Source: an uncultured Clostridia bacterium
GTDB lineage: Bacteria; Bacillota; Clostridia; Christensenellales; UBA1242
Reading direction: 5' to 3'
DNA: 32,790 bases
Assembly: GCA_944360025.1 (NCBI GenBank)
Contig: CALVTF010000003.1
Coordinates: forward strand, 1 to 32,790
In this document: one piece after another, positions 17,766-28,058 of the stretch
Layout: each line of letters opens with the position of its first letter
Position numbering within the stretch: position 1 is the first letter of the stretch
The notes under the pieces: model-generated
What the model was told of the DNA's origin: nothing
What the model saw: the letters and a program-made list of their open reading frames with translations, nothing else
The model's database searches: none
Position numbers and translations under genes: made by a program

Positions 17766-20393
17766 TTAACCTTTTCTTGGATATTTAATGTTTGCTTGTG
17801 CTGCAGCAAGACGAGCGATTGGCACTCTGTATGGAGAGCAAGAAATATAGTTAAGTCCAATTCTGTGGCAGAATTCAACAGATGATGGATCGCCACCGTG
17901 TTCACCACAGATACCAAGTTTAATGTCAGGTCTTGTGCTTCTGCCAAGTTCAGCAGCAATACGAACAAGTTTACCAACACCGTTTTGGTCAAGTTTAGCA
18001 AATGGATCGCTTTCGAAAATCTTCTTTTCGTAGTAAACGTCAAGGAATTTACCAGCGTCATCACGAGAGAATCCATAAGTCATTTGAGTTAGGTCGTTTG
18101 TTCCGAATGAGAAGAATTCAGCATATTTAGCAATTTGGTCAGCAGTGATTGCTGCTCTTGGAATTTCAATCATTGTTCCAACTTTATAGTGCATGTCAAC
18201 TTTCTTTTCAGCCAAAATTTTGTCTGCAGTGTCAGTTACAATGTCTTTTACATACTTAAATTCTTTGCTGTCGCAAGTAAGAGGAATCATAATTTCAGGA
18301 ACAACCTTGAATCCTTCTTCTTTTTCCACTTCAATAGCAGCAGTGATAACCGCTTCTGTTTGCATTCTTGCAATTTCAGGATATGTCACAGCAAGACGAA
18401 GTCCACGATGTCCCATCATTGGGTTGAATTCGTGTAAACTTTCAACAGTTGCTTTCAAACTTTCAAAAGTAAGTCCCATTTCTTTTGCAAGAACTTTAAT
18501 TTCCTCATCTTCATGTGGTAAGAATTCGTGAAGAGGTGGATCCAAGAAACGAATAGTAACTGGACGACCTTGCATAGCCTTGAAGATACCCTTAAAGTCT
18601 TTCTTTTGCATTGGAAGAATTTTCTTTAATGCTTTTTCTCTTTCTTCAGTTGTTGTTGAAACAATCATTTCTCTAACTGCAGGAATTCTGTCTGCTTCAA
18701 AGAACATATGTTCAGTTCTGCAAAGACCAACACCTTCAGCACCGAATGAGAAAGCAACAGAAGCATCACGAGGATTATCGGCATTAGTTCTGATGTTCAA
18801 TTTACGATATTTATCAGCCCATTCCATAATTGTGGCAAATTCGCCAACAATTTTAGCAGATTCAGTAGCGATTTCGCCGTCATAAATCTTACCTGTTGAG
18901 CCATCAAAAGAGATAACATCTCCTTCTTTGTATTTCTTTCCGCCGAGAGTGAAAGATTTTCCGTCATCAGCGAATTTAATTTGTGAACAACCTGCAACAC
19001 AGCAAGTTCCCATACCACGAGCAACAACGGCAGCGTGAGAAGTCATACCGCCTCTTGCTGTCAAGATACCTTGGCTGGCAGCCATACCTTCAATATCTTC
19101 TGGAGAGGTTTCAAGTCTAACCAAAACGACTTTTTCTTTCTTTCCTTGTTCTTTAGCTTTTTCAGCAGTGAAGCAAATTTTACCACTTGCAGCACCTGGA
19201 GAAGCAGGAAGAGCTTCGCCGATTACAGTTGCTTTCTTGACAGCCTTTTCATCAAAAGTTGGGTGAAGAAGAGCATCAAGTTGTTTAGGGTCAAGCATGA
19301 GAAGTGCCTCTTTTTCGGTTCTCTTTCCTTCTTTTACAAGGTCAACGGCGATTTTGAGAGCAGCTTTAGCAGTTCTCTTACCGTTTCTTGTTTGAAGCAT
19401 ATAGAGTTTACCTCTTTCGATAGTAAATTCCATATCTTGCATATCTTTATAGTGATTTTCAAGTTTTGTAGCGATAGCCACAAATTCTTTGTAAACTTCA
19501 GGATTTTGTTCCTCAAGTTTAGCGATAGGTTGAGGAGTTCTAATACCTGCAACGACGTCCTCGCCTTGAGCGTTCATAAGATATTCGCCGTAGAGAGCAT
19601 TTTCACCGGTTGAAGGGTTTCTTGTGAAAGCAACACCTGTTCCGGAATCTTCGCCCATGTTACCGAATACCATTGACTGAACATTTACAGCAGTGCCCCA
19701 GTTGTATGGAATGTCGTGCATTCTACGATATACGTTTGCTCTGTCATTGTCCCAAGATCTAAACACAGCCTTAACTGCTTCAATAAGTTGAACTTTAGGA
19801 TCTTGTGGGAATTCTTGTTTTTGAGCATCTTTATATAATTTCTTAAAGAGTTTAACGATTTCTTTCAAGTCTTCAGCAGTTAAATCTTTATCAAATTTAA
19901 CGCCTTTCTTTTCTTTAATGTCGTCCAAAATTCTTTCATATTTAGACTTGTCTTGTTGCATAACAACGTCGCTGAACATTTGAATGAAACGACGATATGA
20001 GTCATATGCAAAACGTGGGTTGTTTGTAAGTCTTGCAAGACCTTCCACAACTTCGTCGTTAAGACCGAGGTTCAAAATTGTGTCCATCATACCTGGCATA
20101 GAAACTCTAGCACCAGAACGAACAGAAACGAGAAGTGGATTATTTACATCACCAAATTTCTTTCCTGTCATTTTTTCGATTTGAGCAAGTTTTTGATAAA
20201 TTTGAGCCATAATGCCTTCATTTATCATTTTGCCGTCCTCATAATATTTTGTGCAGGCTTCAGTTGTGATAGTGAAACCTTGTGGCACAGGTAAACCGAT
20301 TTTTGTCATTTCAGCAAGGTTAGCACCTTTACCACCGAAGAGTGCTTTGTTGTCACCTTTTGCTTCTTTAAAAAGATAAACGTATTTTTTCAT
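17766..20393 (-). CDS. ppdK: Pyruvate, phosphate dikinase
   Basis: Interconverts pyruvate, ATP and phosphate with PEP, AMP and pyrophosphate. In anaerobes it often works glycolytically or in PEP regeneration. Full length at 875 residues. N-terminal ATP-grasp domain with GGKGANLAEM (20-29), SMPGMMDTILNLG (98-110); swivelling phosphohistidine domain with catalytic His453 in GGMTSHAAVVARG; C-terminal PEP/pyruvate barrel with GLCRTEHMFF, GTMIEIPRA, FFSFGTNDLTQ and the acid Cys829 in GICGEHGGD. AAGGAG lies before the ATG. Its codon use is more selected (GC-richer) than its neighbours, consistent with high expression. It is monocistronic, with an inverted repeat over the promoter. Confidence 0.98.
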   Translation of the reverse strand: MKKYVYLFKEAKGDNKALFGGKGANLAEMTKIGLPVPQGFTITTEACTKYYEDGKMINEGIMAQIYQKLAQIEKMTGKKFGDVNNPLLVSVRSGARVSMPGMMDTILNLGLNDEVVEGLARLTNNPRFAYDSYRRFIQMFSDVVMQQDKSKYERILDDIKEKKGVKFDKDLTAEDLKEIVKLFKKLYKDAQKQEFPQDPKVQLIEAVKAVFRSWDNDRANVYRRMHDIPYNWGTAVNVQSMVFGNMGEDSGTGVAFTRNPSTGENALYGEYLMNAQGEDVVAGIRTPQPIAKLEEQNPEVYKEFVAIATKLENHYKDMQDMEFTIERGKLYMLQTRNGKRTAKAALKIAVDLVKEGKRTEKEALLMLDPKQLDALLHPTFDEKAVKKATVIGEALPASPGAASGKICFTAEKAKEQGKKEKVVLVRLETSPEDIEGMAASQGILTARGGMTSHAAVVARGMGTCCVAGCSQIKFADDGKSFTLGGKKYKEGDVISFDGSTGKIYDGEIATESAKIVGEFATIMEWADKYRKLNIRTNADNPRDASVAFSFGAEGVGLCRTEHMFFEADRIPAVREMIVSTTTEEREKALKKILPMQKKDFKGIFKAMQGRPVTIRFLDPPLHEFLPHEDEEIKVLAKEMGLTFESLKATVESLHEFNPMMGHRGLRLAVTYPEIARMQTEAVITAAIEVEKEEGFKVVPEIMIPLTCDSKEFKYVKDIVTDTADKILAEKKVDMHYKVGTMIEIPRAAITADQIAKYAEFFSFGTNDLTQMTYGFSRDDAGKFLDVYYEKKIFESDPFAKLDQNGVGKLVRIAAELGRSTRPDIKLGICGEHGGDPSSVEFCHRIGLNYISCSPYRVPIARLAAAQANIKYPRKG

Positions 20394-20429
20394 AAAAACT
20401 CCTTATAAACTCCTTTTAGTGTCGAATTA

Positions 20430-20459
20430 ATTATACAAAAAAATATAGTAAAAAGGCAA
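20430..20459 (-). promoter_or_regulatory. ppdK promoter
   Basis: On the minus strand TTGCCT (20459-20454), 18 bases, then TATAAT (20435-20430). The -35 lies in the loop of a long inverted repeat whose left arm fills the spacer. Confidence 0.6.
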
Positions 20460-20480
20460 ACGAATTTACTATATTTTTTT
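20437..20480. repeat. Perfect 16-base inverted repeat over the ppdK promoter
   Basis: Arms 20437-20452 and 20465-20480 (core TATAGTAAA/TTTACTATA with A and T tails) around a 12-base loop. It can be an operator for a dimeric regulator of ppdK. It may also be a bidirectional intrinsic terminator for transcription arriving from engB, because a T run follows the stem on each strand. Confidence 0.8.
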
Positions 20481-20591
20481 AATTTTTTTGTGACATCATC
20501 ACTTTTTATCGCAGTTAAACGATTAAATAATAAATTTTTTAATAATATCTAATTTTTTAAGACTAATTTAAAATAATAAAAAGCCACAACG

Positions 20592-20765
20592 CAAAACATA
20601 AGTTTTGTTCTTCACACAGGCGAATGCGAGTTCTTCACAGTGTCCGTGCCACTTCTTAATACGAAACACAGTTTCGCTCTTCACAACAACGACAGTTGCT
20701 TCTTCACAGTAGCTTCGCCACTTCTTCACGACGACTTAGTCGTCTCTTCACATTGCCTTTGGCAA
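20592..20765 (-). repeat. Array of eight short hairpin units with a conserved linker
   Basis: Directly after the engB stop, on its transcript strand, small stem-loops alternate with the linker TGTGAAGAA or close variants (seven copies). Plus-strand stem positions are 20592-20607, 20618-20630 (barely paired), 20640-20652, 20662-20676, 20687-20698, 20709-20721, 20730-20744 and 20753-20765. Stems have four to six pairs and loops of three or four bases (some longer). Examples are GACGAC/GTCGTC, CGAAAC/GTTTCG and CAAAAC/GTTTTG. Stem sequences differ from unit to unit while the linkers stay the same. This explains most of the 372-base gap between ppdK and engB; the remainder is the ppdK promoter and about 110 featureless AT-rich bases. 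Confidence 0.85.
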
Positions 20766-20766
20766 C

Positions 20767-21345
20767 TCAAATCACTCCCTCAATATAATCTAAAATTTTA
20801 TCTTTTCCAAAAAGCGTTTCGCTTGAGAATGGCAAAATCAGTTCTCTTCGCACTCCTAATGTTTTAGCAATTTTCGACAAATTTTGCGGTATTTTGCTTT
20901 TGGCGAGTTTGTCCACCTTTGTGGCAATGAGCATATATGGAATTTGATAGTGATTTAAAAACTCTATCATCATCTTGTCAAGTTCGCTTGGCTCGTGACG
21001 GCTGTCGACAAGCACAAAAACCGTCTTTAAAAGAGTGGAATTTAAAAGATATTTTTCCATAAGCCCCGCCCAGTTGGCAATGTGCTTTTGTCCTGTTTTT
21101 GCATAGCCATACCCTGGAAGGTCAACAAATTTGAAAGAGTTGTTGATTAAAAAATAGTTTATCATTTTGGTAAGTCCTGGAGTGGAAGAAGTTTTCGCCA
21201 AATTTTTCACACCTGTTAGAGCATTGATAAGAGAGGATTTTCCGACATTACTTCTACCGACAAAAGCAAACTCCAAAAGTTCGTCATTTAAAATATCTTT
21301 TTCATTAACTACACTAGTTAAATATTTTGCACTTACAATTTTCAT
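20767..21345 (-). CDS. engB: Ribosome biogenesis GTPase EngB/YsxC
   Basis: Essential TrmE-Era-type GTPase needed for 50S subunit assembly. The 192-residue protein carries all GTPase motifs: G1 GRSNVGKSS (30-38), G2 region STPGLT, G3 DLPGYGY (75-81), G4 TKVD (142-145) and G5 FSSE. The N-terminus aligns with YsxC of Bacillus, so the ATG at 21345 is credible. It has no Shine-Dalgarno, and a promoter -10 ends six bases before it, so the mRNA is probably leaderless. The stop codon is followed at once by the hairpin array. Confidence 0.96.
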   Translation of the reverse strand: MKIVSAKYLTSVVNEKDILNDELLEFAFVGRSNVGKSSLINALTGVKNLAKTSSTPGLTKMINYFLINNSFKFVDLPGYGYAKTGQKHIANWAGLMEKYLLNSTLLKTVFVLVDSRHEPSELDKMMIEFLNHYQIPYMLIATKVDKLAKSKIPQNLSKIAKTLGVRRELILPFSSETLFGKDKILDYIEGVI

Positions 21346-24164: not shown

Positions 24165-24239
24165 GGTCCTATGGTCAAGCGGTTAAGACGCAGCCCTCTC
24201 ACGGCTGAATCAGGGGTTCGATTCCCCTTAGGATCACCA
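24165..24239 (+). tRNA. tRNA-Glu (anticodon CTC)
   Basis: A 75-base gene with encoded CCA. The acceptor stem is GGTCCTA against TAGGATC (one G-T pair). The anticodon arm is CAGCC, loop CTCTCAC, GGCTG, giving anticodon CTC for GAG codons. The T arm is GGGG, TTCGATT, CCCC. All arms pair properly, so it should be functional. Its 3' end from the T loop onward is repeated at 24529-24549. Confidence 0.96.
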
Positions 24240-27953: not shown

Positions 27954-27970
27954 AAAAATTATATTCAAAT

Positions 27971-28051
27971 TCCATCGGTCTGCCTTTAGCACCTTGAAAA
28001 ATCAGGTTGCTGTGTGGTCAAAGGGGCAGTCCCTCGCACACTCTTTATGGA
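27971..28051 (-). promoter_or_regulatory. SAM-I-clan (S-box) riboswitch aptamer upstream of metK
   Basis: On the minus strand the SAM-clan core is clear: GAGGGACTG, then GCAACC, then GGTGCTAAA. P1 pairs TCCAT (28051-28047) with ATGGA (27975-27971). P2 pairs GTGTG with CACAC. P3 is a short CCTGA/TCAAGG hairpin. The P2 loop CTGC (28029-28026) can pair with GCAG (27983-27980), the expected pseudoknot. There is no room for the P4 helix of standard SAM-I. With SAM bound, P1 forms, the antiterminator is broken and transcription should stop. Confidence 0.93.
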
Positions 28052-28058
28052 TAATATC

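Follow-up and report, generated by a model that had tools for sequence, protein, structure and literature searches.

The array of small hairpins that directly follows engB in the DNA analyzed here is likely to be one copy of a dispersed, BIME/MITE-like, non-coding intergenic DNA repeat, made of palindromic modules that are gained, lost, and exchanged at linkers that stay constant; the engB array is probably a half-copy of this repeat. Dispersal at several genes, presence or absence at given sites, turnover of modules, and maintenance of palindromes despite their differing sequences were all observed. The window (the whole stretch of 32,790 nucleotides that was analyzed) belongs to the genome of an uncultured Clostridia bacterium, referred to below as G000.

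The array occupies the minus strand from 20766 to 20584, directly past the stop codon of engB (20767-20769), and not the span 20592..20765 given in the preliminary description. The gene was identified as engB by model TIGR03598 (212.9 bits versus a cut-off of 124.45), and the next gene past the array, at 20393-17766, codes for pyruvate phosphate dikinase. On the minus strand, eight short intervals alternate with seven inner linkers, which confirmed the eight-unit hairpin/linker array described behind engB. Inner linkers read GTGAAGA or GTGAAGAA in six out of seven cases and ATTAAGAA in one; the linker is near-constant, as first reported, but instead of a fixed nine-mer it has a core of 7-8 bases with one variant. 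Linker-to-linker spacing is irregular and measures 22-25 nt, rather than the 20-24 bases previously given for the units. The array terminates in GTTGTGG followed by a T-rich stretch, with no linker at the end. Its parts are listed below.

20753..20765, minus strand: hairpin 1, TTGCC-AAA-GGCAA, 5 bp; similar to GGTTACCTTCGGTAAC, the hairpin that ends the sigG copy
20745..20751, minus strand: linker 1, GTGAAGA
20730..20744, minus strand: hairpin 2, GACGAC-TAA-GTCGTC, 6 bp; module type also in the sigG and obg arrays
20722..20729, minus strand: linker 2, GTGAAGAA
20709..20721, minus strand: hairpin 3, GTGGC-GAA-GCTAC, 5 bp including one G-U; module type also in the sigE, sigG, and obg arrays
20700..20707, minus strand: linker 3, GTGAAGAA
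20686..20699, minus strand: hairpin 4, GCAAC-TGTC-GTTGT, 5 bp including one G-U; module type also in the sigE, sigG-convergent, and obg arrays
20678..20684, minus strand: linker 4, GTGAAGA
20685..20751, minus strand: three-module block of 67 nt (linkers 1-3 and hairpins 2-4), missing in genome G065 (alignment with locus L048; ends ambiguous within the linker)
20661..20677, minus strand: hairpin 5, GCGAAAC-TGT-GTTTCGT, 7 bp; the G065 version is GCAAAAC..GTTTTGC
20653..20660, minus strand: linker 5, variant ATTAAGAA
20640..20652, minus strand: interval 6, GTGGCACGGACAC, weak by stem score (3 bp, or 4 if the flanking A and T pair, judged by sequence)
20631..20638, minus strand: linker 6, GTGAAGAA
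20617..20630, minus strand: interval 7, CTCGCATTCGCCTG, weak by stem score (3 pairs)
20608..20615, minus strand: linker 7, GTGAAGAA
20592..20607, minus strand: hairpin 8, CAAAAC-TTAT-GTTTTG, 6 bp; identical in G065
20584..20590, minus strand: closing motif GTTGTGG, common to arrays in the own genome and in relatives

The window also contains a perfect 16-bp inverted repeat with 12 nt between its arms (20437-20480), just upstream of the pyruvate phosphate dikinase gene, a SAM riboswitch (53.7 bits; 27969-28053, minus strand), and a tRNA gene (24165-24236, plus strand).

With G-U pairs allowed, the maximal stems of intervals 1 to 8 comprise 5, 6, 5, 5, 7, 3, 3, and 6 pairs. Six of the eight reach at least five pairs, in agreement with the initial estimate of at least six well-paired stems, and intervals 6 and 7 are weak. 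Both the stem sum and the number of good stems were matched in none of 20,000 per-interval shuffles, and chimeras made from halves of the eight intervals reached the sum in 0.01% and the number in 0.025% of cases (n = 20,000). None of 5,000 random window segments was as good as the array stems. When the whole array was folded as RNA, a z value of -0.89 was obtained (37 out of 200 shuffles were at least as stable), and the minimum-energy fold did not show all eight hairpins.

An open frame of 55 codons crosses the array (20568-20735, minus strand; a start codon was not required), which corresponds to the startless frame of 50-odd codons already noticed. It does not resemble a conserved coding frame, since the linker spacing is irregular and the 67-nt module block differs from G065. 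A coding array was rejected, as the frame has no start and the linkers are 22-25 nt apart. A terminator array was also rejected, no rho-independent terminator (a GC stem with a direct T run) being found in 20350-20950. Rfam searches gave no match at the array, either over the whole window at the gathering score or in 20400-20900 at E ≤ 1, and none in four array loci at E ≤ 1. The sole nearby match was to snR3, inside engB (E 0.11, far under the cut-off), and a known RNA family was rejected.

The check that could have refuted the preliminary description did not do so: it revealed other linker-hairpin loci in the window's own genome and in relatives. Copy number in the own genome is low: arms with the same linker were located on contig 22, after a sigE-like gene and after sigG (the latter with a convergent mirror arm), and on contig 26 after obg, and there is a partial copy on contig 35. 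At engB, the sigE-like gene, sigG, and obg, the array begins a short way past the stop codon. The obg gene was named by the NCBIfam ObgE model (512 bits, cut-off 406) and sigG by NF006071 (375.7 bits versus 372), its score with TIGR02850 being under the cut-off (368.5 versus 457). The name sigE is a best guess, because the best score of the protein is with SigE, yet this score misses the cut-off (322.1 versus 339), whereas the more general SigK model accepts it (267.1 versus 252). By eye, the modules at sigE, sigG, and obg largely follow the order GACGAC / GTGGC / CTCGC / GCAAC / CAG.C and precede GTTGTGG or a variant of it, as if whole arrays had been copied. The engB array appeared by eye to be a mosaic, with hairpins 2-4 belonging to this module set and hairpins 5 and 8 to other types. 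Of the six arms seen in the own genome, five have a CTCGC module; four of these modules were scored, and their stems contain only 2-3 Watson-Crick pairs. An engB-specific regulator was rejected as first choice, given that modules of these types recur behind other genes and that two of those sites are empty in G065.

G065 is the nearest relative sampled (EngB 95% identical), and its engB array equals that of the window minus 67 nt, that is, exactly three modules. Its hairpin 5 carries a single double change (G-C to A-T) as well as wobble changes and changes in the loop, and the 150 nt past GTTGTGG contain three mismatches between the two genomes. Filled and empty sites were compared with relatives at engB, sigE, and sigG. 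The sigE and sigG sites, array-filled in the own genome, are empty in G065, where the flanks in which a target-site duplication was sought are AT-rich and diverged. Five more relatives (G020, G121, G030, G113, and G061) have no array in the stretch downstream of sigG. At engB, G061 (86%, more distant than G065) contains only a hairpin-less GTGAAA..TTGTGG stretch. Thus, the presence of arrays, and the module content of shared arrays, change faster than the flanking DNA. The engB-site array itself may be old and vertically inherited, since the site is common to at least two species and G061 keeps that remaining stretch.

Flank matching yielded 25 array pairs, ten of them between genomes that could be told apart; the other 15 (same-record, coding, or with loci of uncertain host) were left out. 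Hairpins are the same or nearly so in three of the ten pairs (L088-L103, and L108-L150 twice), and whole modules or stems differ in four (window-L048, L077-L090, L081-L155, and L084-L092). The three further differing pairs (L043-L131, L077-L256, and L085-L248) have weaker flanks, 77-85% over 123-311 nt, and may not represent the same site.

Relatives carry a sister form with the structure (AGTGAAG + palindrome)n + AGTTGTGG. Model R1 detected it in nine out of 112 genus genomes, with one match each in G020 and G123 (that of G123 weak); R1 misses the window's own array type, and G000 and G065 score 0. Linker pairs 11-21 nt apart amounted to 134 in G061, 67 in G113, 54 in G105, 20 in G030, and 15 in G000, versus 2, 5, 2, 5, and 2, respectively, for reversed-pattern controls, counts that include chance matches and that in most other genus genomes are near their control. 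Those listed for G061 are spread over several contigs. The exact tail GTGAAGAGTTGTGG was found in six of 101 genus genomes, and its reversed pattern in none. In loci L243, L248, and L256, full copies consist of two arrays facing each other as mirror images across an AT-rich core, and the sigG copy of L009 is also mirrored; such mirror arrays have terminal inverted repeats of the MITE type, of which none was seen in the window copy. Some sister copies begin with two or three direct AGTGAAG/A units. In nine genomes, 87 intervals yielded 30 six-base outer arms, of which a few do not belong to hairpins; 13 of the intervals are common to more than one genome.

Genomes E10__bin241 and E14__bin171 were equated with G105 and G113 from shared units, and matching by sequence pieces recovered 30/30 for G030, 9/10 for G061, and 11/11 for G121. 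G121 matches Candidatus Caccovivens faecavium (11/11 500-base pieces of L093 exact in L120), placed by NCBI in Bacillota, Clostridia. The R1 census detected the sister form in none of 398 phylum genomes, a weak result because no positive control was in the sample and the model does not detect arrays of the type present in the window. An order-wide search for the 14-mer gave three out of 297 genomes, one being the genus member G030. Three other features were noticed at these loci: next to the arrays of L084, L087, L092, L244, and L254, in array-rich genomes, there is a second dispersed repeat (around AGCGACAAAATCGC..GGTCGCTAAAGGAGCAAACAA, with variants); in L248, at about 1140-1220, a hairpin module is apparently inserted in the loop region of another and flanked by repeated GTGAAGGYGAACCG; and the long stretch that separates the facing arrays of L117 contains an open frame of 309 codons, ATP-grasp-like by eye.

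Covariation was analyzed in 59 unique sister-form 17-mers chosen by linker only, with seven pairs and a three-base loop. The alignment kept exact 17-nt intervals (59 out of 100) and dropped those with GTGAA or GTTGTGG; its source loci include 14, within L186-L209, from the named-genome scan described below, whose hosts are not among the matches listed. Compared with shuffles, which ignore the relatedness of the sequences, 95.9% of cells were paired (70.3% in shuffles), double-change cells numbered 117 (34.9), and covariation was 0.759 (0.264), slid-partner controls reaching at most 0.157. Changes on both sides were found in seven of the seven pairs versus 5.8 in shuffles, a value equalled in 77 out of 500 of them. 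For the window's own type (15 unique units, including G065), 40% of units have at least five Watson-Crick pairs versus 3.1% of chimeras, with few informative changes; the strong covariation signal comes from the relatives' sister form. The proposal that structure is kept rather than sequence is right for this sister form, because its stems show strong double changes, and the compensatory changes that had been suggested as a check are strong across them. In the own genome, judged by eye, the stems are mostly module types common to other arrays, and their differences do not reflect a single hairpin diverged by compensatory change.

Selection on the RNA strand predicts that G-U pairs are tolerated and A-C pairs are not. 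In the outer six pairs of 94 out of 99 units, 540 of 564 cells were Watson-Crick, 12 G-U, 8 A-C, and 4 other; the five units omitted had fewer than four Watson-Crick outer pairs, a filter that can favour Watson-Crick cells. Since G-U was not in excess over A-C (p 0.50), RNA-strand selection was not seen. For the evaluation of placement, arms were required to have a stem of five or more pairs, and simple ORFs of at least 80 codons served as genes. Of these arms, 63 out of 70 lie outside ORFs. Among the 55 with an upstream neighbour, 32 have the same orientation as that gene and 23 the opposite one (p 0.28). Co-oriented arms lie closer to the upstream gene (median 48.5 nt versus 138 nt, p 0.0013), 19 of 32 being within 60 nt of it versus 4 of 23 opposite arms; facing and split arms were counted singly here and the arms had been selected by their stems, so these counts depend on pairing and on one another, and they are small. 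The nearness of co-oriented arms may reflect promoter avoidance or a 3' role of the sense strand. The parity of G-U and A-C, together with the presence of both orientations, favours a DNA-level element.

The profile search for transposases covered Y1_Tnp (PF01797) only, and matches were obtained in 12 of 101 genus genomes, but all nine sister-form genomes lacked one; two of these nine, G105 and G113, have a completeness of just 77% and 75%. The nine are counted among the 101 because the genomes were drawn as for two other searches, whose listings contain all of them. A Y1 transposase was not retained as mover of the sister form. Such an enzyme may have had a role in the window's lineage, since G065 has a near-full match (positions 2-121 of 121, 131.5 bits) and shares with G000 a stop-ridden Y1 transposase remnant, alike in score and stops (G000:C21:10069-10254 and G065:C2:133661-133843). 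Scans of viral contigs gave 226 matched places in 146 loci, six of which (in five loci) have one stem of at least five pairs and none two, and phage and plasmid records gave no match to the array. Carriage by phages or plasmids was rejected on these grounds.

A scan of named genomes with GTGAAGN{13,21}GTGAAGAGTTGTGG retrieved 104 stretches; the 80 listed include the array genus, Oscillospiraceae and other Clostridia, and Sulfurovum and other Campylobacterales. Matches in Nostoc, LCP-89, Actinobacteria, Acidobacteria, and Nitrosomonadales were judged by eye to be coding chance matches and were not used. In the Oscillospiraceae/Clostridia and Sulfurovum elements, direct heptamers (GTGAAGA)n end in GTTGTGG, and the stems of the adjoining palindromes differ between copies. 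Heptamer-GTTGTGG-palindrome loci include L137, L139, L181, and L182 in the Oscillospiraceae group, and L115, L149, L174, and L178 in the Sulfurovum group. A mirrored end lay within 260 nt in 7 of the 23 Clostridia rows shown and in 4 of the 14 Sulfurovum rows; the two groups had been picked by title from the matches listed. Unlike the window array, these elements have their heptamers in direct tandem and their palindromes inside GTTGTGG rather than between heptamers. Judging from the shared 14-mer and the layout, they could be true relatives of the array or convergent. No description of the element or its motif was found among the literature matches listed, and the five papers that matched the motif deal, to judge by their titles, with other subjects.

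If the array is a copy of a dispersed repeat, the full element would consist of (GTGAAG(A)(A) + palindrome)n, then GTTGTGG, an AT-rich core, and a second array in mirror orientation. The unit inherited and selected would be the DNA palindrome, as a hairpin or cruciform on single-stranded or supercoiled DNA, and such structures would either be the target of recognition or drive the exchange. New copies would arise by a BIME/MITE-like, non-autonomous process through a putative trans-acting activity, and the length and module content of arrays would then change through recombination or template switching from linker to linker, the linkers serving as the joints of module exchange. The position of the engB copy, immediately after a stop codon, would explain why it is tolerated, and an effect on the end of the engB mRNA, if there is one, would be secondary. 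The array is probably not an engB device.

Several other explanations were considered. In one of them the array is a 3'-UTR RNA element, its transcribed hairpins protecting the end of the engB mRNA or binding a protein, and the RNA fold is what is selected. Consistent with it are the short distance between stop codon and array at the engB, sigE-like, sigG, and obg genes, the shorter distance of co-oriented arms to the gene end, and the covariation of stems. Nevertheless, we consider it unlikely, as arms occur in both orientations (32 v 23), the sites behind sigE and sigG are empty in G065, G-U pairs do not outnumber A-C pairs significantly (12 v 8), Rfam has no match at the array or in the four array loci, and the RNA energy of the whole array is ordinary, with no terminator-like site nearby; a 3'-UTR role is possible but secondary. 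Of the three functions initially suggested, a dispersed palindromic element fits, and a 3'-UTR scaffold or a stability array is not favoured, for the reasons of orientation, empty sites, and base pairing just given; the earlier interpretation as a whole was partly supported.

An array that never moves, and that only grows and shrinks in place by slippage and unequal exchange at its linkers, seems quite unlikely. The same module types in largely the same order occur at three other places of the genome, two of them empty in G065, G061 has its many linker pairs on several contigs, and full copies are mirror-image pairs around a core; what such local tandem expansion would explain is the exact three-module block that distinguishes the window from G065, the near-identity of the linkers, and an engB site common to two species. 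Finally, small intergenic palindromes, mosaic arrays, and short conserved motifs, together with the Y1_Tnp match of G065 and the remnant that it shares with G000, recall the REP/BIME families that are mobilized by REP-associated tyrosine transposases (Y1, RAYT-type). This origin is very improbable, considering the distribution of Y1_Tnp over the genus, a foot that reads AGTGAAG and not GTAG/CGTC, modules arranged head to tail within an arm, and stems that vary instead of staying conserved.

A bolder and rather unlikely reading is a hairpin-cassette system recognized by fold and not by stem sequence. In such a system, palindromic DNA modules would be inserted, deleted, or exchanged by a putative activity wherever the constant linker occurs, and the Oscillospiraceae and Sulfurovum elements would suggest machinery or horizontal spread across phyla. 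If this were true, arrays would carry a changing repertoire of perfect palindromes. The array family separates recognition of the fold from recognition of the sequence in a natural series, and close species pairs differing by whole modules could reveal the birth and remodelling of bacterial palindromic arrays. It also advises caution, in that a single hairpin array behind a gene need not be the regulator of that gene.

Among known systems, the RHE of sponge mitochondria are described as divergent, intergenic, hairpin-forming repeats with a scattered distribution (PMC2800124). The array element shares the divergent, scattered intergenic hairpins, and differs in that RHE reside in organelle genomes. 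We know of no constant linker of the GTGAAG kind in these RHE. Tandem heptamer repeats, TAACTGA in Beggiatoaceae and GGGNATC in Xanthomonas and Nostoc, are presented as intergenic, with a patchy and wide distribution (PMC4679880, PMC4692102). AGTGAAG is likewise a seven-base intergenic unit, directly repeated in places, but palindromic modules sit between the heptamers, and the linkers of the window are 22-25 nt apart. In cyanobacteria, heptamer repeats contain small dispersed repeats.

MITEs are a class of miniature inverted-repeat transposable elements defined by terminal inverted repeats and target-site duplication. Like them, the array element is non-coding, has mirror-image ends around a short AT-rich core, and shows empty and filled sites; unlike them, its ends are arrays of different hairpins and not one terminal repeat, and single arms occur, including that of the window. 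Within a REP/BIME family the palindrome is conserved. REP/BIME are described as small palindromes that form intergenic mosaic arrays with short motifs; they are numerous, have a patchy distribution between species, and frequently lie downstream of coding sequences and as facing pairs (PMC2817692, PMC3733652), BIME units alternating in orientation (PMC2817692). The array element resembles them in its small palindromes, short motifs, intergenic mosaic arrays with many copies, and facing arms in full copies. It differs in its foot, which is AGTGAAG in 59 of 59 sister units (the linker being their selection rule) and GTGAAGA(A)/ATTAAGAA in the window array, instead of GTAG/CGTC, and no Y1 transposase was seen in the nine sister-form genomes. 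To our knowledge, known palindromic repeats conserve the palindrome within a family; in the array element the linker is constant and the palindrome varies yet stays self-complementary on both strands, and modules run head to tail within an arm. The element belongs with the interspersed palindromic mosaic elements, and is unusual among them in that the spacers are conserved and the palindromes vary.
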